Source: Ruminococcaceae bacterium BL-6
GTDB lineage: Bacteria > Bacillota > Clostridia > Oscillospirales > Acutalibacteraceae
Assembly (NCBI GenBank): GCA_902810075.1
Contig: LR778135.1
Coordinates: 3,348,001-3,412,000, forward strand
DNA: 64,000 nt
Direction of reading: 5' to 3'
The notes below the pieces were generated by a model. It ran no database searches, had not been told where the DNA came from, and saw only the letters and a program-made list of their open reading frames with translations. Shown one piece after another: positions 44,952-54,505 of this stretch (its first letter is position 1; each line of letters begins with the position of its first letter). A program made the translations under genes and the position numbers.

Positions 44952-45449
44952 TTACTCCTCCACAAGCTCATCGTCCAAAAGCCGCACCGACGAGGTGTCC
45001 TTTTTGGGGATGGCAATCAATTCTTCCTCCCCGGCACGCAGGCGGATCACAGAATCCTCACAGGATAAAAGCGTGCCGGTCAGCTCGCGCCGGCCATCCT
45101 GTCTGGGGCGGATCAGCTTTACCCGCACCTGCGCGCCGGCGAACCGCTGAAAATGCTCGGGCCGCGTCAGTTCCCGGCCGATACCGGGCGAGCAGACCTC
45201 GAGGCAGTAGCTCTGCTCGATGGGGTCGGCCTGGTCCAGCAGCGGATTCAGCGCGCGGCTCATTTTTTCACAGTCGTCAATGCCCACTCCGCCCGGCTTG
45301 TCGATCAGGATGCGCAGGAACCAGCCGGCGCCTTCCTTGACGAACCGGACATCCCAAAGGGACAGCCCAAGCTGCCGCGCCACCGGCTCGGCGAGGGCGG
45401 TTACGATCTGTACGGTACCGCCGGACCTTTTTTTCCCAGACAATCTCAT
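44952..45449 (-). CDS. rimP: Ribosome maturation factor RimP
   Basis: 30S assembly factor. VTALAEPVARQLGLSLWDVRFVKEGAGWFLRILIDKPGGVGIDDCEKMSRALNPLLDQADPIEQSYCLEVCSPGIGRELTRPEHFQRFAG is characteristic of the family; an SH3-like C-terminal domain follows. 165 residues. The AGGTGA site touches the ATG at 45449; a TTG at 45443 would be better spaced and is the alternative. First gene of the rimP-nusA-infB operon. Confidence 0.93.
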   Translation of the reverse strand: MRLSGKKRSGGTVQIVTALAEPVARQLGLSLWDVRFVKEGAGWFLRILIDKPGGVGIDDCEKMSRALNPLLDQADPIEQSYCLEVCSPGIGRELTRPEHFQRFAGAQVRVKLIRPRQDGRRELTGTLLSCEDSVIRLRAGEEELIAIPKKDTSSVRLLDDELVEE

Positions 45450-45467
45450 TCACCTCATAGACAAACA

Positions 45468-45491
45468 AAAGAGCGGGTCGCCCCACTCTTT
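45468..45491 (-). promoter_or_regulatory. Attenuator-like hairpin in the rimP-nusA leader
   Basis: On the minus strand AAAGAGTGGG pairs with CCCGCTCTTT around a 4-base loop and is followed by TGTTTGT, a terminator shape placed between the promoter and rimP. In Bacillus subtilis NusA is known to control its own operon through a leader terminator, so this is the likely counterpart. Confidence 0.6.
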
Positions 45492-45524
45492 CATCCTCAC
45501 TCAAATCTTCGTATTGATGCTAAT

Positions 45525-45553
45525 ATTATATCACAGCCCTTTGCAAAAAGCAA
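45525..45553 (-). promoter_or_regulatory. Promoter of the rimP-nusA-infB operon
   Basis: Minus strand TTGCTT (45548-45553), 17-base spacer, TATAAT (45525-45530). Confidence 0.7.
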
Positions 45554-45562
45554 ATTTTTTTT

Positions 45563-45610
45563 AGGCCTCGTCCGAACGATCGCGGAACCAGTCTGTTTCG
45601 GCTAAAATCC
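45563..45610 (+). repeat. Dispersed intergenic repeat, copy 2
   Basis: Begins AGGCCTCGTCCGAAC and ends TTTCGGCTAAAATCC; about 75% identical to 6901-6948. As there, it lies directly downstream of the stop of a minus-strand gene (spoVT). Confidence 0.6.
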
Positions 45611-45636
45611 GCCGTTTTTTATGGATCAAACAGGGC

Positions 45637-46176
45637 CTAGCTTTCGATCTGCCTTCCCAAAAAGGATGCGGTGGCCTGCGTCAGCTTTACGTCGCTGGGG
45701 TCGGGCTGCTCCGACGAATCGCTCGAAAGCAGCACCACGGAGCCCACCACGTCGCTCGACGCGATGATGGGGTAGACCACGGCGGCGGTGCGGTTGATCC
45801 CCTCCACCGGCTGAAGCGGCTGGGCGCTTTTATCCTGCACATAGCTGCGGCGCGCGTGCATGGCCTCCTCCAGGTCCGGCGACACGCGGCGCTCGAGGTA
45901 TTCCTTGCGGGAAGCCCCCGAAACCGCGATCACGTGGTCGCAGTCGCACACCAGAACCGGCTGGCCGGATATTTTGCTCAGCACGTCGGCATACTGAAAG
46001 GCAAAGGAAGACATCTCCCCCACAGCCGAATACTTTTTAAAAATAACGCCGCCCTCCGAATCCGTAAATATTTCAAGCGGATCCCCCTCGCGGATACGCA
46101 GGGTCCGGCGGATCTCTTTTGGAATTACGACACGTCCTAAGTCATCAATTCTTCTGACAATTCCTGTGGCCTTCAA
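45637..46176 (-). CDS. spoVT: SpoVT-like transition/sporulation regulator (AbrB domain + GAF-like domain)
   Basis: DNA-binding regulator of late forespore genes in spore formers. N-terminal AbrB swapped-hairpin domain (MKATGIVRRIDDLGRVVIPKEIRRTLRIREGDPLEIFTDSEGGVIFKKY) and a C-terminal GAF-like sensor domain (ISGQPVLVCDCDHVIAVSGASRKEYLERRVS...VVYPIIASSDVVGSVVLLS). 179 residues, full length. Start is a TTG at 46176 with GGAGG eight bases upstream. Its presence argues for a sporulating organism. Confidence 0.93.
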   Translation of the reverse strand: MKATGIVRRIDDLGRVVIPKEIRRTLRIREGDPLEIFTDSEGGVIFKKYSAVGEMSSFAFQYADVLSKISGQPVLVCDCDHVIAVSGASRKEYLERRVSPDLEEAMHARRSYVQDKSAQPLQPVEGINRTAAVVYPIIASSDVVGSVVLLSSDSSEQPDPSDVKLTQATASFLGRQIES

Positions 46177-46584
46177 ATTAATTCCCTCCTGCGATTTATT
46201 TCACGGTTATTATCCGCAGGAATAAACTGCTTATTCGTTTCTGGAAACGGAACAGTACAGTTTTTGTCAAGGTTTATTCTGGAAATTGCTTTTTCCGCAC
46301 AGGCGGATTTTCCACTATTCAATCCGCGCGGATTGGTGTATAATATTGTCACAATGCGCTTCAGGCGCAGGAGCTTTGCAGGGAAAGAGGAAAAAGCCCC
46401 GCGCCCGAGCAAAGCAGGACAAGCTTAAAGAGCCCAGGGCTTGCGGCTTTGTTCCGCACGCATAACGCCATTCATTCTGCGGCATTTCCAGCTTAAGATG
46501 CAGCATTGGTTTTGTTCAAAACCGGGTTCGCAGTCATAAGCGGAATTGCCACCAATAATTTTGATGATACGGGAGGTCTCTCTT
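46177..46584. other. Intergenic region between spoVT and lipoprotein gene
   Basis: About 400 bases without a gene. It shows a plus-strand TATAAT at 46339-46344 with a weak -35, GC-rich short inverted repeats after it (GCGCTTCAGGCGC at about 46355), and at 46527-46553 the dispersed block with ATAAGCGGAATTGCC. A short RNA is possible but no known family is recognised. Confidence 0.4.
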
Positions 46585-47034
46585 TTGAAAAAAACCGCAA
46601 AATTTCCTTTGATCCTGCTGGCCGCCGTACTGCTCTTCGTCTTTTCCGGCTGCTCCGCGCGCACGGCGATCAGCGCCAAGGACTTTCAGACGCTGGCGGA
46701 AAAGGCGGGCTACACCGTAACGGACAACACCAAAACGGCCGCCGGGGCGAAAAGCTTTCTGACCGCTTCAAACGACAAGGACGCGGAGCTTTCCTATGCG
46801 GCCCTGTCCGACGACGCGGCCGCCCTCAGGGTCTACAACAGCTTCCGCGACCAGATTCAAGCCGGGGACAACAAGGCCAAAAACGTGGATTCCACCCCTT
46901 ACGCGAAATACTCGGTGACAAACGGAGAGCTCCATTATGTGGTCTGCCGCGTGAACAACACCGTGATCTACGGGAAATGCACGGCTGCGGATGCGGCCGC
47001 GACGGACCGCTTTTTCGATTCCATCCACTACTGA
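46585..47034 (+). CDS. Lipoprotein of unknown function
   Basis: 149 residues. Signal peptide with lipobox ending at Cys23 (LLFVFSGC), then a small soluble domain (ISAKDFQTLAEKAGYTVTDNTKTAAGAKSFLTASNDKDAELSYAALSDDAAALRVYNSFRDQIQ). No family recognised with certainty. The TTG at 46585 is used because GGAGG lies eight bases upstream and the signal peptide then begins directly; the frame is open to 46546. Ends before a strong terminator shared with the Rnf-like operon. Confidence 0.75.
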   Translation: MKKTAKFPLILLAAVLLFVFSGCSARTAISAKDFQTLAEKAGYTVTDNTKTAAGAKSFLTASNDKDAELSYAALSDDAAALRVYNSFRDQIQAGDNKAKNVDSTPYAKYSVTNGELHYVVCRVNNTVIYGKCTAADAAATDRFFDSIHY

Positions 47035-47132
47035 TCCAGGCCTTGGGGTGCTGCCCCAAACACCGTGAACTTTTGAAAAGGCTTGACCAAAACTTTTTGG
47101 ATTTATAAAGCCTTCTCAAATCAGGACGCCCC

Positions 47133-47160
47133 AACAGGCGCGGCATCTGCCGCGCCTGTT
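47133..47160. terminator. Terminator between lipoprotein gene and Rnf-like operon
   Basis: AACAGGCGCGGCA and its perfect complement with a two-base loop, followed by TCTTTTTT on the plus strand. Two further inverted repeats precede it (47043-47059 and about 47074-47118). Confidence 0.85.
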
Positions 47161-47167
47161 TCTTTTT

Positions 47168-47761
47168 TCAGAAAAGGCGTCCGCCGGTGAAGCCGAAAAA
47201 GGCCAGCGACAGGATGCCGACATAGAGGAACACGGCCGGCAGCCCCTGAAACGCCTGCGGCATATCGGGGTTCCTCATCCGCCCCATCGCCTGGGAAAGC
47301 ACGGCGGATGCAAACAGGAACGCCGCCCCCGTCCCAAGCGCGTAGCCGATCATCTGCCACGGCCCGAGAAAGAAGACCCGCCGCAGGAACGGCATGGAAA
47401 GCACCACGGAGTTGATGGCCGAGGAAGAGAGGAACGGCTCCACCTTTTTGTAAAACTTCGGCCACCACGTCCGCCAGACGAAGGCAGCTGCCAGATAGAC
47501 CGCCGCCGTGCCGCAGGCGAACAGCACCGGCCGGGCGGCCGCGGCCCAGCCGCCCGCGGGGACCGTGCGGCCGAACCAGATCCCCAGGGCCGCTGAAGCG
47601 AGCGTGAACCCGCACACCAGGCCGGAATAGGTGATCGCCGTTTTTGGCCGCCGCGCGGCGCGCAGCACGCGGCTGAACCCGATTCCGCCCGTGAAAATCA
47701 GGTTTTCCGACGTCACCGCCAAAACGGCGTACAGCATCATCTGCGCCAGCGTCTGCATCAC
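47168..47761 (-). CDS. RnfA-like membrane protein lacking the cluster cysteines
   Basis: Polytopic membrane protein, 197 residues, six hydrophobic segments, aligning with RnfA/RsxA along its length (C-terminal QAFQGLPAVFLYVGILSLAFFGFTGG matches APFRG...LITAGLMSLAFMGFSG). In true RnfA a cysteine in each of two half-helices (GLCPF and TTNCAVLG) holds a [2Fe-2S] cluster; here these sites read GGIGFSR and AINSVVLS, so both cysteines are gone. Its ATG overlaps the RnfE-like stop by 4 bases. Last gene of the C-D-E-A operon; it cannot carry electrons in the known way. Confidence 0.85.
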   Translation of the reverse strand: MMQTLAQMMLYAVLAVTSENLIFTGGIGFSRVLRAARRPKTAITYSGLVCGFTLASAALGIWFGRTVPAGGWAAAARPVLFACGTAAVYLAAAFVWRTWWPKFYKKVEPFLSSSAINSVVLSMPFLRRVFFLGPWQMIGYALGTGAAFLFASAVLSQAMGRMRNPDMPQAFQGLPAVFLYVGILSLAFFGFTGGRLF

Positions 47762-48474
47762 GGCGTCACCTTCCCTTCCGCGGGCCTTTTATGGTTGACG
47801 AACTGGATGAGCGCGGAGAGGAATCCGAGCAGGATCAGCCCCGCAAACGGGTACGATGCGGGGTTTTGAAGCGCCGTATTCCCCAACCGGCTCAGGCTGT
47901 GCGCCCAGCCCGCGCGCAGGGCGGAAACGATCAGAAGCACCGCGCAGAAGCCAGCCGTGCATCCGAGCGAATCGGCGAGCACCGCCGGGGTCAGATGGTT
48001 AGGGGCGTAATCGTTCGCCCGCGACAGGATGATCGAATTCGCGATCATCAGCGGGCCGTAAATGCCGAGCCCCAAAGACGCCCCCGGCATCACAACATCC
48101 AGCAGGCGCGACGCGGGCAGGTAGAACAGCGCCGAAAGCAGCAGCACAAGAGCGGGCCGCACCCAGACCGGCACCTTCTCGCCGAGCCACCCGCTGATCA
48201 GGCAGACGGGCGTCATCATCACAAGCATCAGCAGCGAAAGCGCCCACGCGTTTTCCATGCTGTACCCCGCGGCGACAACCGGAAACAGGCCGAGCGCACC
48301 GATGACGACCGGATTTTTGAAGATCACGCCGTTCACGAGGATCGTGCCCGCCTGCCGGAGGAGCTTTTTCCGTCCGGCTCTTTTTGCCGGAAGGGCCTTT
48401 GGCTTCCGGCTTTGGCTCTTCTCCCTTTTCGCGGCGGCGGGAGCGCCCGCGCGCCATTTATTCCTCTTTTTCAC
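47758..48474 (-). CDS. RnfE-like membrane protein lacking the cluster cysteines
   Basis: 238 residues, with a basic N-terminal tail (residues 1-40, Lys/Arg/Ala-rich) and about six membrane segments. KNPVVIGALGLFPVVAAGYSMENAWALS aligns with the RnfE segment NN..LVQLLGLCPLLAV, with Cys replaced by Phe; SLGLGIYGPLMIANSIILSRANDYA aligns with [23 protein letters not shown], with Cys replaced by Ser. The two cluster-binding cysteines of RnfE are therefore absent. GTG start at 48474 with GGAGG upstream; overlaps the RnfD-like gene by 17 bases. Confidence 0.85.
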   Translation of the reverse strand: MKKRNKWRAGAPAAAKREKSQSRKPKALPAKRAGRKKLLRQAGTILVNGVIFKNPVVIGALGLFPVVAAGYSMENAWALSLLMLVMMTPVCLISGWLGEKVPVWVRPALVLLLSALFYLPASRLLDVVMPGASLGLGIYGPLMIANSIILSRANDYAPNHLTPAVLADSLGCTAGFCAVLLIVSALRAGWAHSLSRLGNTALQNPASYPFAGLILLGFLSALIQFVNHKRPAEGKVTP

Positions 48475-49387
48475 GTCCGCGCCTCCTTTCCGCCTGCAGG
48501 GAACAGACCGCCCCATCGATCAACGGAGCCGCCGCGTTCATCAGCAAAACGGTAAAGCTCGCGCTCTGCTCGTAAACGCCGAAGCGCCTCATCAGCATCA
48601 GGACGATCCCCCCCAGCAACCCGTACAGCGCGCCGCCGGAAACGGTGCGGGGCGCCGTCACCGGATCGGTCATCATAAAGACGGCGCAGAACAGCAGGGA
48701 TCCGGAAAGCATCTCGTACTTCACGGATGTAAGCGGCGGCACCAGAATGCGCGGGAACAGCGCCGCGAACACCGCCGCGGAAACCAGGAACCAGAACGGG
48801 ATCTGCCAGTTCGCGGCGCGGCGCACGAACAGAAAAAGGCTGCAGGCCGCGATCACAAGTGCCGCCGTCGTTCCGACGGGCCCGGCCGTCAGGCCCCACA
48901 GCATCTCGGATGGGACCGCCTCCGGCTTCAGGCCGGCTTTCAGCGCCGCCGCGGGGGACTGCTGCGCATAGCGGAACATCTCCCCGGGCCAGAAGGCCGT
49001 GGCGAACGCCAGGCCCGCCGCGGCGGGATTGAACGGCGTGTGCCCGGTCGAGCCGAACGGAATCCTCGCCGCGAGGACGGCGAAAACGCCAGCCGCCGCG
49101 GGAAGCCAGTACGGCGCGCCCGGGGGCATCATCGCGACGATCACCATGCCGGTGACCATGGGGGAAAGCTCGGAGATATTGATTTCGCGCTTTGCCACCA
49201 GGCATCCCGCGATTTCGGCCAGCATGCAGGCGGCGACGGAAACGGCGGCAAGCTTCAGCACGGAAACGCCGTAATGCACCGTCGGAAGGATCAGCAGCGC
49301 CGCCAGCGCCAGCAGCATATCGCGCATCATGGAGCCGACGGATTCCTCCGTCCGGAGGAACGGCGCCGTTTTTGTCCGGATCATCAT
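48458..49387 (-). CDS. RnfD-like membrane protein without the flavinylation motif
   Basis: 309 residues, about nine membrane segments; matches RnfD/NqrB in GSTGHTPFNPAAAGLAFATAFWP, GLTAGPVGTTAALVIAACSLFLF and FMMTDPVTAPRTVSGGALYGLLGGI. In RnfD an FMN is attached to Thr in an SGATxL motif shortly before the G..G..GxT region; here that stretch reads QQSPAAALKAGLKPEAVPSEML and has no such threonine. It lies directly after the RnfC-like gene. The usual next gene, rnfG, is missing. Confidence 0.85.
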   Translation of the reverse strand: MMIRTKTAPFLRTEESVGSMMRDMLLALAALLILPTVHYGVSVLKLAAVSVAACMLAEIAGCLVAKREINISELSPMVTGMVIVAMMPPGAPYWLPAAAGVFAVLAARIPFGSTGHTPFNPAAAGLAFATAFWPGEMFRYAQQSPAAALKAGLKPEAVPSEMLWGLTAGPVGTTAALVIAACSLFLFVRRAANWQIPFWFLVSAAVFAALFPRILVPPLTSVKYEMLSGSLLFCAVFMMTDPVTAPRTVSGGALYGLLGGIVLMLMRRFGVYEQSASFTVLLMNAAAPLIDGAVCSLQAERRRGREKEE

Positions 49388-49393
49388 AGGCCC

Positions 49394-50632
49394 CTATCCC
49401 CTTTCCTTGATTTCCGCGGCGCGCGCCACCGCTTCCGCCGGAGAAAGGCCGGATGGGCACACCACCGAGCAGGCGTTGCACCGGCAGCACTTTTCGGCCC
49501 GGTAAAGCTTTTGCGGGTCCGGATACCGGTTTTCCTGAAGCTGGCGCTGAAGATACCACGGCAGGATGCGCATGGGGCACACCCTGGCGCACCGCCCGCA
49601 GCCGATACACGGGAAAACCTTTTTCTCGGGCGCGTCCGCCGGCAGCACCACAAGGCAGCGGGTATCCGCCGTAACCGGCGTTTCCGGATTGGTCACCATG
49701 CCGCCCGTGATGGGCGAGCCCGCCACCGCGACGGCATCCCTTTCCGCGCCGCATGCCGCAAGCAGCTCGCCCACCGGCGTGCCGAGCAGCACCCTCAGGT
49801 TTTTCCATTCTTTGGCCCCTTCGCCCGAAACGGTCACGACAGTGGAAACCTGGGGGCGGCCCTGCTCCACCGCCTCATACAGCGCGGCAAGCGCCTGGAC
49901 GCCGATCAGCCCGGGGCGCCGTCCGTGAAGCTGCTGCTCCCTCAGCAGGCGGGGCCACGCGGGGTAAATCCCCCCGCCGCTCACCAGCATATCCGATTCC
50001 GCCCCCGAGATGCGGGCGTAGTGCCTGGCCCGCATCTCGCTCGCCACGGCGATTTTCCGCTCGGATGCGCCGCAGGCCGCGGCGGCGAGCTCCAGCTCGG
50101 CGCGGACCGCCGCCCGGTTCTCTTTGAGCACGGCGAGCCCGCTGCAGACATAGGGCTCGTCATCCAGAACATTTGCGGCGAGCCAGTCGATTTTCAGCCG
50201 CCGGAAGCGTTTCAGCTTCTTAAACAGGGGGATCCCGTCATATTCATCTATAATCCCCGCCGCGGCGGAAAGCCGGATGATCTCGTCCGGCTCCGCCCCC
50301 ATCCCCGGGGACTCGAGCCTGATCTCCCCGACGGCTTCGTTGGTCTCGATGACAGCGCAGTCCACCGTCCCGGAAACCGGATGCGGCATGGCGCGGATCC
50401 CGAGCACCCTCCCGCCGGCGGGGGCGCAGACGGCGACGTTGCGGATCGGCATGGAAAGCTGGCTGTAGCGCAGCACCACATCCCCCTCCCGCACACAGCG
50501 CTGCGCGGATGTCTGCGCGCCGGGCAGCGGCACCGCAATGATTTTCGGGGCGGGCAGCGTTTCGATCCTGTTTTTCATCGTCCGGCTCTTTTTCTGCTCC
50601 AGACGGACTCCGCCTGAAAAAATTGAAATCAT
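49394..50632 (-). CDS. RnfC-like iron-sulfur protein with lost NADH/FMN loop
   Basis: 412 residues. Keeps the N-terminal RnfC barrel region (LPAPKIIAVPLPGAQTSAQRCVREGDVVLRYSQLSM), the DDEPYVCSGLAVLKENRAAV region (ECEPY in RnfC), the soluble ligand-binding-like part and two [4Fe-4S] motifs, CIGCGRCARVCP and CCRCNACSVVCP. The glycine-rich nucleotide/flavin loop of RnfC (GLGGAGFPT) is replaced by IIDEYDGIPLFKKL. ATG at 50632 has GAGGTGA upstream. First gene of the operon, so the only obvious redox centres of the complex are these two clusters. Confidence 0.87.
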   Translation of the reverse strand: MISIFSGGVRLEQKKSRTMKNRIETLPAPKIIAVPLPGAQTSAQRCVREGDVVLRYSQLSMPIRNVAVCAPAGGRVLGIRAMPHPVSGTVDCAVIETNEAVGEIRLESPGMGAEPDEIIRLSAAAGIIDEYDGIPLFKKLKRFRRLKIDWLAANVLDDEPYVCSGLAVLKENRAAVRAELELAAAACGASERKIAVASEMRARHYARISGAESDMLVSGGGIYPAWPRLLREQQLHGRRPGLIGVQALAALYEAVEQGRPQVSTVVTVSGEGAKEWKNLRVLLGTPVGELLAACGAERDAVAVAGSPITGGMVTNPETPVTADTRCLVVLPADAPEKKVFPCIGCGRCARVCPMRILPWYLQRQLQENRYPDPQKLYRAEKCCRCNACSVVCPSGLSPAEAVARAAEIKERG

Positions 50633-50699
50633 TGCCAAATCACCTCTTGCCCAAACGGCGCGAACAGGACCGCATTCCCATTTGAGATTCAGAATTTCT

Positions 50700-50734
50700 G
50701 CTGTTTCTCCCCGCCTTCGGCGGGGAGAAACAGC
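50700..50734. promoter_or_regulatory. 16-bp perfect palindromic hairpin upstream of the Rnf-like operon
   Basis: GCTGTTTCTCCCCGCC, TTC, then the exact complement. It lies between the divergent RnfC-like and MecA-like genes with no T-run. Related CCCCGCC/GGCGGGG hairpins occur at about 16174, 43806 and 60352. A dispersed block with ATAAGTGGAATCGCC follows at 50748-50773. Confidence 0.5.
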
Positions 50735-50812
50735 TCCGGATTTTCACAAACATAAGTGGAATCGCCATAATATTATAGTACCAGAACCGCTATTGATACT
50801 GGGGGTGTCGAT

Positions 50813-51385
50813 TTGAAGATGAAAGCCTTGGATGCTTCCCACCTGCTGATCATTCTGACCGCGCAGGAATCCCGCTCTCTCGGGCTCACGGAAGGGTTAA
50901 GCTGGAACAGCCTGCACTGCCGGCTGACGATCGCCCGCATTTTTGCGGCGGCCTGCGCCAACACGGATTTCGCCCGCCACAAGGACCAGATCGCGATCCG
51001 GGCGATGGCGACGACAGACGGAGAAACGGTTTTGATGTTTACCGCAGTTGCCCCGGCGAAGGCAAAAAAAGGGGCGACGCGTAAGATTTTCCGAATCAAA
51101 TACTCCGGCCCGTACGTTTACGAGCTGGAAAACGCCGACGACCTGCTGAACGCCCTGGAACGGCTTTACCGCAGCAACACGCAGGGCGGATGCCAGCTTC
51201 TGCAGTACGGCCGCAAATACCGGCTGATCCTTTCCCCTTATTTCACGATGAAGGAAAAAACGGAAGGCATCCTGAAAGAATACGGACGGCTGTGCGGGGT
51301 CGGGAAAGTCGCGGCGGCCGTTTCGCTGGAGCACGGCCGGGTTCTCTCGCGGGATGCCGTAAAGCAGGTGGGCGGCTGCCTTTAA
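50813..51385 (+). CDS. MecA-like adaptor protein (divergent)
   Basis: 190 residues. The C-terminal half (YELENADDLLNALERLYRSNTQGGCQLLQYGRKYRLILSPYF...EGILKEYGRLCGVGKVAAAVSLEHGRVLSRDAVKQV) resembles the ClpC-binding domain of MecA, including the EYG and LEEHGKVI-like segments, and the short N-terminal domain (MKALDASHLLIILTAQESRSLGL) resembles the substrate-binding one. MecA targets proteins to the ClpCP protease and controls competence in Bacillus. Similarity is weak, so this is a tentative call. Start TTG 50813 has GGGGGTG upstream; an ATG two codons on is the alternative. Ends overlapping rpe by 4 bases. Confidence 0.6.
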   Translation: MKMKALDASHLLIILTAQESRSLGLTEGLSWNSLHCRLTIARIFAAACANTDFARHKDQIAIRAMATTDGETVLMFTAVAPAKAKKGATRKIFRIKYSGPYVYELENADDLLNALERLYRSNTQGGCQLLQYGRKYRLILSPYFTMKEKTEGILKEYGRLCGVGKVAAAVSLEHGRVLSRDAVKQVGGCL

Positions 51386-52020
51386 CGTTTTGCCGCCTGA
51401 AGCCTGGCGATCGCCGCCGCCGGATTTTCAGCCCGGAACACGCTCGTCCCGGCGACGCAGATATCCACGCCGGCGGCGGCGCACTGAACCACCGTCTCGG
51501 GATTGATGCCGCCGTCCACTTCCACCAGCACCGCCGGGCGGCGTTCTTTGACGGCGCGCACCTTTTCCATCATGCCGGGCATAAAGCTCTGCCCGCCGAA
51601 CCCGGGCTCCACCGTCATGACCAAAACCAGAAACAGCTTATCCAGATACGGGAACACGGCCTTGGCCGGCGTTCCCGGTTTTATTGCCAGGGCCGGCTTG
51701 GCGCCGCCCGCAAGGATCGCCCCGACGGTTTCGGCCGGATCGTCGGCGGATTCCAGATGGAACGAAATGACGTCGGCCCCCGCGTCGATAAAATCCGGAA
51801 TGTATTTCAGGGGATGCTCGATCATCAGGTGGACGTCGAACGGGACGCGCGTGTAAGGGCGCATGGCCTTGATCACGGGCGCGCCGAAGGTCAGGTTCGG
51901 GACGAACGCCCCATCCATGACGTCCAGATGGATAAAGTCGGCTCCGCCTTCCGTTATTTTCTCGACCTCGCTGCCCAGATGGGCGAAATCCGACGACAGC
52001 ATGGATGGTGCGATCAGCAT
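51382..52020 (-). CDS. rpe: Ribulose-phosphate 3-epimerase
   Basis: Interconverts ribulose 5-phosphate and xylulose 5-phosphate. TIM-barrel motifs: IAPSMLSSDFAHLG, DFIHLDVMDGAFVPNLTFG, HLMIEHP, VMTVEPGFGGQSFMPGMMEKV and VEVDGGINPETV. 212 residues. The start at 52020 is set by GGAGGG; the frame stays open upstream to 52134. It supplies the pentose phosphate pathway used by the split transketolase elsewhere in the window. Confidence 0.96.
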   Translation of the reverse strand: MLIAPSMLSSDFAHLGSEVEKITEGGADFIHLDVMDGAFVPNLTFGAPVIKAMRPYTRVPFDVHLMIEHPLKYIPDFIDAGADVISFHLESADDPAETVGAILAGGAKPALAIKPGTPAKAVFPYLDKLFLVLVMTVEPGFGGQSFMPGMMEKVRAVKERRPAVLVEVDGGINPETVVQCAAAGVDICVAGTSVFRAENPAAAIARLQAAKR

Positions 52021-52298
52021 GATAAATTCCCTCCGTATTCCCATAAAACAGGTTTGTTTTATTTTACCCCAAACCCGCCGTTTTTTCAAGCGCGGGAACC
52101 CGGCGCGCCATGGGAAGCGGGCCCTTTTTTCCACGAAATAGAAAAGCCCGCCGCAGCCATACGGCCACGGCAGGCAATCTATAATAAAGCGGTGCCAAAT
52201 TTCGCCCGCAATTCATCTTATGCAGGCACGGCGGTCCGCGCCACCGGTTTTGCGGGGATGTCCCGCATTTTTCTTTTCATTCTTCCGGGCCGGAAAAA

Positions 52299-52586
52299 TC
52301 AATTCTTCTTCCCGGCGTCATCCTGCGGAGCGTCATCCTGCGTTTTTTTCTTCTCGCGGTAAAACGCGATGCTGACGATCACAAGGACGATCGCGATCAG
52401 GACGCGCAGCAGGATTCCGCCCGTTCCGGCGAACAGGTTCTGCGGCGAAAGCACATCCGCCAGCCACCAGACGCCCAGCACCAGAAAAAAAGCCCCCGCC
52501 ACATAGAACACTTTATTTTCACGGCCCATTTTAAAAATCAGGATCAGGCCGACCAGAAGCCACATGGCCGCGTAGACAAAACCCAT
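52299..52586 (-). CDS. Small membrane protein of unknown function
   Basis: 95 residues with three hydrophobic segments (FVYAAMWLLVGLILIFKM, VFYVAGAFFLVLGVWWLADVL, GGILLRVLIAIVLVIVSIAFY) and a charged tail (REKKKTQDDAPQDDAGKKN). Not recognised. ATG at 52586 has AAAGG close upstream. The 280 bases between it and rpe hold short hairpins but no gene. Confidence 0.7.
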   Translation of the reverse strand: MGFVYAAMWLLVGLILIFKMGRENKVFYVAGAFFLVLGVWWLADVLSPQNLFAGTGGILLRVLIAIVLVIVSIAFYREKKKTQDDAPQDDAGKKN

Positions 52587-52655
52587 AGAACCTTTCCGCC
52601 CCTTTTCACCGTTTTTCTCAAGTATAGGCCGCAGAGGGCCGGATGTCAAGGCGGA

Positions 52656-52976
52656 TCAGGCGCACCTGCCGCAGGCCGGCTGCACCCCGTTCCCCGGCGC
52701 GCGGCGGGCCCTGCGGCAGTGCCTGAGCCTTTCTGCGAGGCGGCGGCGAGCCTTCCGCTCCCCGCGCAGGCGCAGCACACAGCACGCGAACGCCGCCGCC
52801 TGCATCAGCGCCTGCACCGCCTGAAAAACAGGCGCTCCGCCGGAAACGATCAGCCCCATCACCGCCATCAGCACGCAGATCCCGCAGATCTGAAGGCTTT
52901 CCTTCGTCTTCGGCCTCTCCTTCCAAAAGACGAAGGCCACCGCGGCCAGCAGCAAAAAAGAAAATCCCACGCTCAT
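52656..52976 (-). CDS. Small membrane protein of unknown function
   Basis: 106 residues: three hydrophobic segments (VGFSFLLLAAVAFVFW, ICGICVLMAVMGLIVSG, APVFQAVQALMQAAAFACCVLRL) and an Arg/Cys-rich tail (ERKARRRLAERLRHCRRARRAPG...ACGRCA). The tail is unusual and may be partly fortuitous. ATG at 52976 chosen over an upstream TTG. No family recognised; moderate doubt that it is expressed. Confidence 0.5.
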   Translation of the reverse strand: MSVGFSFLLLAAVAFVFWKERPKTKESLQICGICVLMAVMGLIVSGGAPVFQAVQALMQAAAFACCVLRLRGERKARRRLAERLRHCRRARRAPGNGVQPACGRCA

Positions 52977-53088
52977 CACAAATCCCGCCTTCCTCAAGCT
53001 CTTTCGCTCATATGTTCGGTCTGTGCCCTTATCATACCAAACATTTGTTCATTGTGCAAGGGCTTTTTTCAAATTTTTCAGAGGCACC

Positions 53089-53121
53089 AAAAAGAGGCGG
53101 CCAGGATGGCCGCCTCTTTTT
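53089..53121 (-). terminator. Terminator of yabE
   Basis: AAAAAGAGGCGGCC and its complement around AGGAT, with T-run on the minus strand, 40 bases after the yabE stop. Confidence 0.85.
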
Positions 53122-53160
53122 CTGATTGACGCGTGTGAGGATTTTTTGTTCGAGCGCCCG

Positions 53161-54366
53161 CTATGCGAGGATATAAAGCCGCATGTTGCGCACTCCGAAA
53201 GATCTGCACTCGCTTTCCGTATCATAGTACAGATCCGCAAGGACCCGGCCGCTGAGCATGGCTCCGCCGGTATCCGCGGCAATCGCGTACCCGTAAACAG
53301 TCTTGCCGTTGGGAGAAGCGATATAAAGCCTGGTTCCGTAAGGAATCACTTTCGGGTCGACCGCAATATGGCCGACCTTTGCCCTTCTTCCCGTGGCGGT
53401 CGTCCCGCCGTTCGAGGTATATGCGGTACAGATCCCGCTGATATACCTGCTGTAACGGATCGTTTTGCCGTTTTTGTCCTTTACGGTCCCGCCCGAAGAC
53501 GCGGCCTTTTTCGGTTTTGCTGCCGCCAGCACCGCCTTGGGCGCGACCAGCTTGATCTGCGCCACGGGCTGTTTCGTAATGCCGGAGCTGACGGTTTCGC
53601 GTTCCTGCACGACCCCGTCGATCAGTTTCTCGCGGTAAACCGCCTCGCGCAGGCCGTTCTGGCCCGCCTGGGCGATCCGCGAGGCCCCCTGTGAAACGGA
53701 GGAGCCTTCTTTGACGACGGTTGTAAACGGAATTTCCTCGGTCGCCTTGGTTTCCCGGTAGGTGACCCGTTTTACGGCGATCGTCAGGCCGTCTTTCACT
53801 TTCGTATCCGCCGAGGGGGTTACCAGATCCTCTTTGCCCAGCTTTACGCCGGCGCTTTTCAGCGCCTGGGCCACGGTGCCTTCCGGCACCAGGGGGCTCA
53901 GCTTCCCGCCGTCGAACACAATATTCACTTTGTACCGTCTGGTCACTGCGATCTTCATTCCGTCGCTTACCGCTTTTCCAAGCGGCTCGCTGACGACATC
54001 GTTTGTTCCCAGAGAGATTTTCGCCTGATCCAGCGCATACTGAACCGTATCGCCCGTGTGCACCGGCACACCGGTCGATTTTCCGTCGGCCGAAACGGCC
54101 ACACGGAAGCCGCGGCGAATCGTAATCACGATCCCGTGGTCGTCGTTTCTCGCAACAAGGTCGTCGCTGTCCAGCGTAACGTGTGCCTGTTCCAAAATGT
54201 TCTCCGTATCTGCGGAAAACACCTGAACCGTATAAGATTTTCCGCCGTCCACAATGGTGGCGGCGATGGTTGTGGCAACTGCTGTAACAACGGAACTAAG
54301 AAAAACTATAATCATCATTGCAAAAGCAACGAATCTTTTCGCGGGAAAACGTAGTTCCATCTGCAT
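53161..54366 (-). CDS. yabE: YabE-like cell-wall protein (DUF348 repeats, G5 domain, 3D domain)
   Basis: Secreted, probably peptidoglycan-active protein. One N-terminal membrane or signal segment (RFVAFAMMIIVFLSSVVTAVATTIAATI), three DUF348 repeats (about residues 42-205), a G5 domain (RVTYRETKATEEIPFTTVVKEGSSVSQGASRIAQAGQNGLREAVYREKLIDG, about 210-285), and a C-terminal 3D domain with the conserved aspartates in HIAVDPKVIPYGTRLYI and AIAADTGGAMLSGRVLADLYYD. 401 residues. A 3D domain like that of MltA suggests lytic transglycosylase activity. GGAG precedes the ATG. Confidence 0.93.
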   Translation of the reverse strand: MQMELRFPAKRFVAFAMMIIVFLSSVVTAVATTIAATIVDGGKSYTVQVFSADTENILEQAHVTLDSDDLVARNDDHGIVITIRRGFRVAVSADGKSTGVPVHTGDTVQYALDQAKISLGTNDVVSEPLGKAVSDGMKIAVTRRYKVNIVFDGGKLSPLVPEGTVAQALKSAGVKLGKEDLVTPSADTKVKDGLTIAVKRVTYRETKATEEIPFTTVVKEGSSVSQGASRIAQAGQNGLREAVYREKLIDGVVQERETVSSGITKQPVAQIKLVAPKAVLAAAKPKKAASSGGTVKDKNGKTIRYSRYISGICTAYTSNGGTTATGRRAKVGHIAVDPKVIPYGTRLYIASPNGKTVYGYAIAADTGGAMLSGRVLADLYYDTESECRSFGVRNMRLYILA

Positions 54367-54476
54367 TGTTTTAGCGTCTCCTTTGTTTTTGTTTTGGCGG
54401 CGGAAAACGGCCGGAAATTCGAAGCCAGCGTTCCGACGTCACCCCAACAAATTTTAGGATTTGCGTCAATGGTGGT

Positions 54477-54505
54477 ATTATATTCATCGAATAGCTAATT
54501 GTCAA
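54477..54505 (-). promoter_or_regulatory. Consensus promoter of yabE
   Basis: Minus strand TTGACA (54500-54505), 17-base spacer, TATAAT (54477-54482): a full consensus. The leader is about 105 bases and contains GC-rich inverted repeats; no known riboswitch recognised. Confidence 0.8.

Follow-up and report, generated by a model that had tools for sequence, protein, structure and literature searches.

Can the cell keep a respiratory complex whose redox centres are gone? A four-gene cassette in Ruminococcaceae bacterium BL-6 raises this question. It lies at positions 47168-50632, on the minus strand, of a 64,000-nucleotide stretch of contig LR778135.1 (the window, C1:3348001-3412000). The genome is listed as 100% complete and consists of one contig of 3.44 Mb. 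The four open reading frames are ordered RnfC-, D-, E- and A-like, the last ending at 47168, and genes for RnfG and RnfB are absent from the cassette. An earlier note on this DNA had described the Rnf order C-D-E-A without rnfG and rnfB, with intact reading frames and coupled starts, and both the gene coordinates and the Pfam matches bear it out. Sequence comparison gives good support to the prediction that the cassette is not a working Rnf. We tentatively read it as a redox-decoupled Rnf paralogue, with a D-E-A core that would be kept as a transport-like module for an ion or a solute.

The four genes overlap or sit closely spaced. The RnfC-like protein (49394..50632, minus strand) has 412 residues from ATG 50632, which is preceded by AGAGGTGA, and contains a barrel domain, a weak SLBB match and two CxxCxxCxxxC [4Fe-4S] motifs. 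The RnfD-like protein (48458..49387, minus strand) has 309 residues and belongs to PF03116. The RnfE-like protein (47758..48474, minus strand) probably starts at GTG 48474, with GGAGG ahead of it and within the 3' end of the D gene; its longest open reading frame begins at 48516. The RnfA-like protein (47168..47758, minus strand) starts at ATG 47758, which shares one base with the stop of E, and its longest open reading frame begins at GTG 47761. Pfam assigns RnfC_N and Fe-S domains to C, NQR2_RnfD_RnfE to D (7.2e-70) and Rnf-Nqr to E (3.5e-20) and A (3e-16). The NCBIfam cut-offs for rnfC, D, E and A are all missed, at 166/246, 164/207, 47/213 and 47/229 bits. Solved chains matched by the four proteins are mainly Rnf/Nqr subunits, foremost 7zc6 (Clostridium tetanomorphum), 9eri (Acetobacterium woodii) and 8ahx. 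The RnfC-like protein also weakly matches two photosystem ferredoxin chains through its Fe-S motifs.

Rnf is a redox-driven ion pump in which RnfA and RnfE act as an alternating-access rocker switch, controlled by reduction of an intramembrane [2Fe-2S] cluster (PMC11889175). In A. woodii, neither autotrophic growth nor activity survived mutation of the cluster cysteines (PMC11889175). Residues at the cofactor sites were compared between 40 variant loci, including the window's, and 31 canonical loci, with window residues numbered on the longest open reading frames. Canonical loci have cysteine at all four [2Fe-2S] sites in 31/31 cases, and variants retain at most two. The first cysteine of A and the second of E are lost in 40/40 variants; the second of A is retained in 15/40 and the first of E in 5/40 (the E protein of one locus, L105, reads only 134 residues). 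The window has none of the four: at these sites A carries S30 and S118, and E carries F78 and S161. The claim that all four are replaced therefore stands, except that the register given for the first A cysteine needs a shift of two positions: in the window it is GFSRV, and not GGIGF, that lies opposite canonical GICPF.

The flavin sites of D and C are altered as well, as the earlier note had read them. An SGAT-type attachment site is missing from the RnfD-like protein, in which the flavinylation segment is shortened, the motif is absent and Ser occupies the Thr column. Across the variants, Thr stands in that column in 4/40, never in canonical context; RnfD is of sufficient length for this comparison in only 10/31 canonical loci. 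In the RnfC-like protein, IIDEYDGIPLF does stand where GLGGAGFPT would be expected. The loop for flavin mononucleotide and nicotinamide adenine dinucleotide (FMN/NAD loop), GLVGLGGAGFP, has become GIIDEYDGIP. It is replaced in 14/14 variant C proteins and kept in 10/10 canonical ones.

Other sites persist. Both [4Fe-4S] motifs of C, reported as intact in the earlier note, indeed have 8/8 cysteines in 14/14 variant C proteins, the window's included. The riboflavin ligands of A. woodii RnfD, N123 and D249, are kept in the window as N120 and D241, so its RnfD-like protein could still hold a non-covalent flavin. Among variants, both ligands are retained in 11/14 loci with C versus 8/26 without it (Fisher p 0.007, relatedness uncorrected). 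A riboflavin channel is disfavoured, with one or both ligands missing from 18/26 C-less loci. In A, 39/40 variants keep the Asn that precedes the second cysteine site, which is N112 in A. woodii numbering and N117 in the window; R67 of RnfE is kept in 37/40, the window included. N112 is a Na+-site residue, and the two residues are counted among those of the Na+ site and ion pairs (PMC11889175).

Could another Rnf in the same cell supply the missing parts? For the window's genome, though not for other genomes, this is ruled out by scans for Rnf-Nqr, FMN_bind, RnfC_N and PF04060. The only Rnf-Nqr proteins genome-wide are the cassette's two, and a single protein carries RnfC_N. No FMN_bind domain occurs anywhere in the genome, which leaves neither RnfG nor NqrC, and no RnfB is present, the sole PF04060 match being a hydrogenase-like sensor. 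A second, canonical rnfCDGEAB, which the earlier note had proposed to look for, is thus lacking from this genome, together with any rnfB, rnfG or cysteine-bearing paralogue. A comparison of caproate producers states that strain BL-6 has only four Rnf genes, plus Ech, and groups the strain with Clostridium jeddahense and C. merdae (PMC7764203). These four genes may well represent the same cassette type as described here. A hydrogenase cluster in the genome resembles Ech by its subunits, the name being our own reading. The known ferredoxin:NAD+ route is predicted to be unable to run, because it would need RnfB, RnfG, the A/E cluster, a covalently bound flavin on D and an FMN/NAD loop in C, all of which are missing.

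Searches of Clostridia recovered C-D-E-A cassettes without B and G in relatives. A scan of named-species genomes gave three relatives of D. Two of them, in Clostridium sp. D33t1_170424_F3 (L004) and Anaeromassilibacillus senegalensis (L005), belong to the same C-D-E-A cassette, at 42-57% identity to the window; both retain one A cysteine (NCIVL) and have lost the three other [2Fe-2S] sites. The third (L006) is a canonical-type locus truncated at a contig end. Broader samples of the order, class and phylum were drawn evenly out of larger groups. An order-wide search with a profile (A5) built from 26 variant A proteins, at E <= 1e-40, found variant A in 56/394 sampled genomes. These comprise 19/43 genomes of the window's own family, 35 of a second family, from which at least 40 genomes were sampled, and one each in two others. 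The own family is probably Acutalibacteraceae, to which A. senegalensis belongs. Two genomes, G022 and G266, score near 142 bits, with the other variants above 170, and both are of the variant type on reading. In the class sample (391 genomes), matches of at least 198 bits occur in nine genomes, all within the order; the next best reaches 130 bits, and the 21 loci from the lower-scoring class group, L082-L102, include G and B and are canonical. In the phylum sample (398 genomes), E <= 1e-38 was reached in only two genomes, both of the own family. The variant cassette was accordingly not found outside the order in the class and phylum samples.

The cassette usually coexists with a real Rnf, yet it can be kept without one. 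TIGR01943, the model for true RnfA, scores above cut-off in 52/56 variant genomes and falls 0.7 and 3.0 bits short in G341 and G229, so that canonical RnfA is counted in 54/56. It is missing only from the window's genome (G000) and from G199, which is 99% complete. Both of these genomes carry a C-bearing cassette (the window and L038).

Reading 40 cassettes of the 56 variant genomes in context revealed a conserved arrangement: rpe, a divergent MecA-like gene where present, then [C]-D-E-A and a DUF4015 gene. Two loci that occupy the same places as L004 and L005 (L053, L054) and six short duplicates (L076-L081) were excluded before counting, and a cut canonical locus (L055) stands outside the 31 canonical ones. 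The upstream neighbour is rpe in 38/40 variant loci, a MecA-like gene is present in 24/40, and neither RnfG nor RnfB occurs in the stretches read at any of the 40. D-E-A is present in all 40 cassettes and forms their constant core. C and DUF4015 vary around it. Ten loci of the own clade have C-D-E-A and no DUF4015 (in L041 the contig stops 168 bases after A, too early to tell), four have C-D-E-A-DUF4015 (L058, L066, L106, L107), and 26 have D-E-A-DUF4015. Every C-less locus therefore has DUF4015, truncated in two. Pfam scans of four of these proteins (L062, L066, L105, L106) confirm the family as PF13200, and the others were called with a custom profile. In two full-length DUF4015 proteins, one N-terminal hydrophobic segment precedes a large domain, a topology that resembles that of RnfG. 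DUF4015 is absent from the whole of the window's genome. A recent mobile origin is unsupported, as rpe adjoins 38/40 loci and the 40 variants form one group.

Phylogeny and substitution rates place the cassette as an old and maintained lineage. In a maximum-likelihood tree of D, E and A combined (71 loci, 702 columns), the 40 variants split from the 31 canonical loci along a branch of 1.12 substitutions/site, with a bootstrap of 84. The cassette is an old paralogue of Rnf. Under Dollo counting, with C taken as ancestral and never regained, C was lost three times. Support is 93 and 91 at the nodes joining C-bearing L058 and L107 to C-less groups, but only 62 and 68 at two other relevant nodes. 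The ratio of nonsynonymous to synonymous substitution rates (dN/dS) was computed for seven variant pairs and one canonical pair; two values were not computable, and the window's own copy, which lacks a close relative, lies outside this set. Between L004 and L005 the ratio is 0.083 for C, 0.091 for D, 0.076 for E and 0.063 for A, with 0.033 for rpe; in the canonical pair L070-L071 it is 0.07-0.11. Among more distant variant pairs, C, D, E and A span 0.07-0.25, and the ratio reaches 0.29 for DUF4015 and 0.52 in one MecA-like pair. Variant C, D, E and A are thus under purifying selection, measured in relatives. The earlier note had argued for a maintained cassette over a decaying one, and values of 0.063-0.091 (L004 against L005), far from 1, agree with it.

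What might the maintained proteins do? A maintained complex would presumably have taken on a new role. A transport or channel role is favoured because D-E-A is constant, A and E form a rocker switch in Rnf, and RnfD/NqrB has been described as a relative of ammonium/urea transporters that resembles them in fold (PMC12174285, PMC10643135). The near-universal retention of N112 in A and R67 in RnfE also counts in its favour, as does the more frequent retention of both riboflavin ligands where C is present. In the redox-decoupled reading, which we prefer with less than even confidence, the A/E scaffold would keep alternating access around the emptied cofactor site, and the RnfD-like subunit would retain a transporter-like fold. 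In the own clade, C would provide a cytoplasmic [4Fe-4S] input that might reach a flavin held non-covalently by D and put the core under redox control. In other lineages C is gone, and a membrane-anchored DUF4015 protein would stand outside, at the place of RnfG in Rnf. We infer that the proteins form a single complex, that this complex transports and responds to redox state, and what DUF4015 does and where it sits. A version in which D-E-A is a transporter or channel with no electron transfer, and a DUF4015 or CAP protein is its extracytoplasmic partner, is doubtful. If it were true, RnfA/E alternating access would run without an iron-sulfur cluster.

Several observations weigh against the preferred decoupled module. 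The Na+-path residue T110 of A remains in only 3/40 variants and T111 in 0/40. E115 of RnfE is found in 22/40 (20/26 C-less and 2/14 C-bearing loci), and the window has Asn there. RnfD itself is reported to take no part in Na+ translocation (PMC11889175). Both riboflavin ligands persist in the 8/26 C-less loci counted above. Since each of the 26 C-less loci shares its genome with canonical RnfA, a C-less core might borrow canonical RnfC, and loss of the C gene is therefore no proof of lost redox input. AlphaFold models from three-row alignments have a mean predicted local distance difference test (pLDDT) score of 45 for D and 44 for C, too poor for fold comparison.

The best surviving rival, though unlikely, is a truncated electron device. 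In this case, the own-clade C with its two [4Fe-4S] motifs and D with riboflavin would form a short path from cytosol to membrane, with ferredoxin, for example, as the donor and a flavin or quinone-like compound in the membrane as the acceptor, and A and E would be structural only. The complete set of Fe-S cysteines in every variant C protein (8/8 in 14/14) points this way, as do the riboflavin ligands kept in 11/14 C-bearing loci, the window included, and the retention of C by both genomes without canonical Rnf. In Rnf, moreover, electrons from RnfG reach the Fe-S centres of RnfC via the flavins of RnfD (PMC11889175). However, the FMN/NAD loop of C is lost in 14/14, and B, G and the flavinylation motif of D are all missing. 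C is also absent from 26/40 cassettes in which D-E-A stays, which means that a path through its own C is not the function of all.

Somewhat weaker, and to our judgement quite unlikely, is an envelope scaffold or sensor, a D-E-A pseudo-enzyme platform that would hold DUF4015 or CAP-domain proteins at the membrane with no transport. DUF4015 adjoins all 26 C-less cassettes, and L046 and L048 pair a shortened DUF4015 protein with a CAP-family protein between D and E. Seven E proteins also have long acidic tails. Against this, the own clade has no DUF4015 at the locus and the window's genome has none at all, yet the clade's four genes are similarly constrained, and the retention of N112 and R67 hints at more than a structural part. 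An improbable alternative is that these are alternative subunits that mix with the canonical Rnf of the same cell or borrow its RnfC. Canonical RnfA in 54/56 variant genomes, including those of all 26 C-less loci, would permit it, but the window's complete genome and G199 have the cassette without canonical RnfA, and a long branch divides variant from canonical proteins. A decaying remnant of a former rnf operon is barely credible: two genes and most cofactor sites are lost and the window's genome has no canonical Rnf, but dN/dS is 0.06-0.09 in relatives, frames are intact and starts coupled, and the first cysteine of A and the second of E are lost in 40/40 loci of one clade.

The cassette can be set beside several known systems. 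With RNF (RnfABCDEG), the cassette shares homologous C, D, E and A in the same order and of the same Pfam families, the Asn of the second A cysteine motif, R67 of RnfE, both [4Fe-4S] motifs of C and, in the window, the RnfD riboflavin ligands. It differs in the missing RnfB, RnfG, [2Fe-2S] cysteines, D flavinylation motif and C FMN/NAD loop, and also in forming a separate clade in another neighbourhood (rpe, MecA-like, DUF4015). Na+-NQR (NqrA-F) has been described as another rnf duplicate minus rnfB, whose RnfC homologue, NqrA, lost its cofactors (PMC4014512). Unlike the cassette, NQR acquired NqrF and still has its NqrD/E cluster and the NqrB and NqrC flavins; the cassette has lost the membrane cluster and keeps the Fe-S motifs of C, and the genome has no NqrC-type FMN_bind. 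Nqr/Rnf-like flavinylation systems likewise include an RnfD-like subunit without the flavinylation threonine (PMC10979944). Those systems, however, have a flavinylated RnfG-like subunit and an NqrF-like NAD domain (PMC8238504), whereas the window's genome lacks any FMN_bind protein and the cassette has A and E.

No description of a cysteine-less RnfA/E cassette was found in the literature searched, subscription papers lying outside its scope; two papers with a matching gene string concern rnfCDEAB, a different case. An Rnf derivative without the cluster, under selection and present in a seventh of the order's sampled genomes, offers a natural test of which parts depend on electrons. The case also matters for annotation, since family names may credit a genome with ferredoxin:NAD+ energy conservation that, in the window's genome, has no sequence basis; an Ech-like hydrogenase is found there instead.

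The C-less loci show further variation beside their cores. In L046 (5990-8891) and L048 (5418-8424), the DUF4015-type protein has shrunk to 149 residues in the former and 134 in the latter. The canonical rnfG position, between D and E, is taken by a gene for a CAP-family protein, matched by Pfam in L048, an apparent swap of the extracytoplasmic module from DUF4015 to CAP. The long acidic C-terminal tails on E occur in L046, L048, L049, L059, L060, L061 and L073, and several of them resemble one another in short motifs (DFDEMLTELDAY in L049, for example).

Upstream of the cassette in the window are a divergent gene for a MecA-like protein (50813..51385, plus strand), with a weak PF05389 match here and a clear one in two relatives scanned, and rpe, for ribulose-phosphate 3-epimerase (51382..52134, minus strand). 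A perfect inverted repeat (50700..50734), with 16-bp arms around a three-base loop, lies between the rnfC-like and MecA-like genes; the 64-kb window contains its core once. An Rfam scan of 45000-54500 returned nothing at gathering score, the repeat included, and inspection by eye of 40 upstream stretches gave no clear shared promoter motif.

Elsewhere in the genome, the PF04060 protein has 575 residues and combines a hydrogenase large-subunit C-terminal domain with FeS and PAS domains (L104 976-2703; G000 C1:280423); the gene for a 220-residue protein comes after it. One ApbE flavin transferase is present (L103 1363-2424; G000 C1:2606757-2607572) in this genome without any FMN_bind protein. 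On the downstream side of the cassette, convergent with the A gene, a small lipoprotein-like protein of no known family (46546..47034, plus strand) is followed by spoVT at 45637-46176. A link to sporulation lacks evidence, DUF4015 being named only as a fusion partner in the one paper found with it, on Bacillus sporulation genes. The lipoprotein-like protein has a homologue in 7/9 other own-clade loci.

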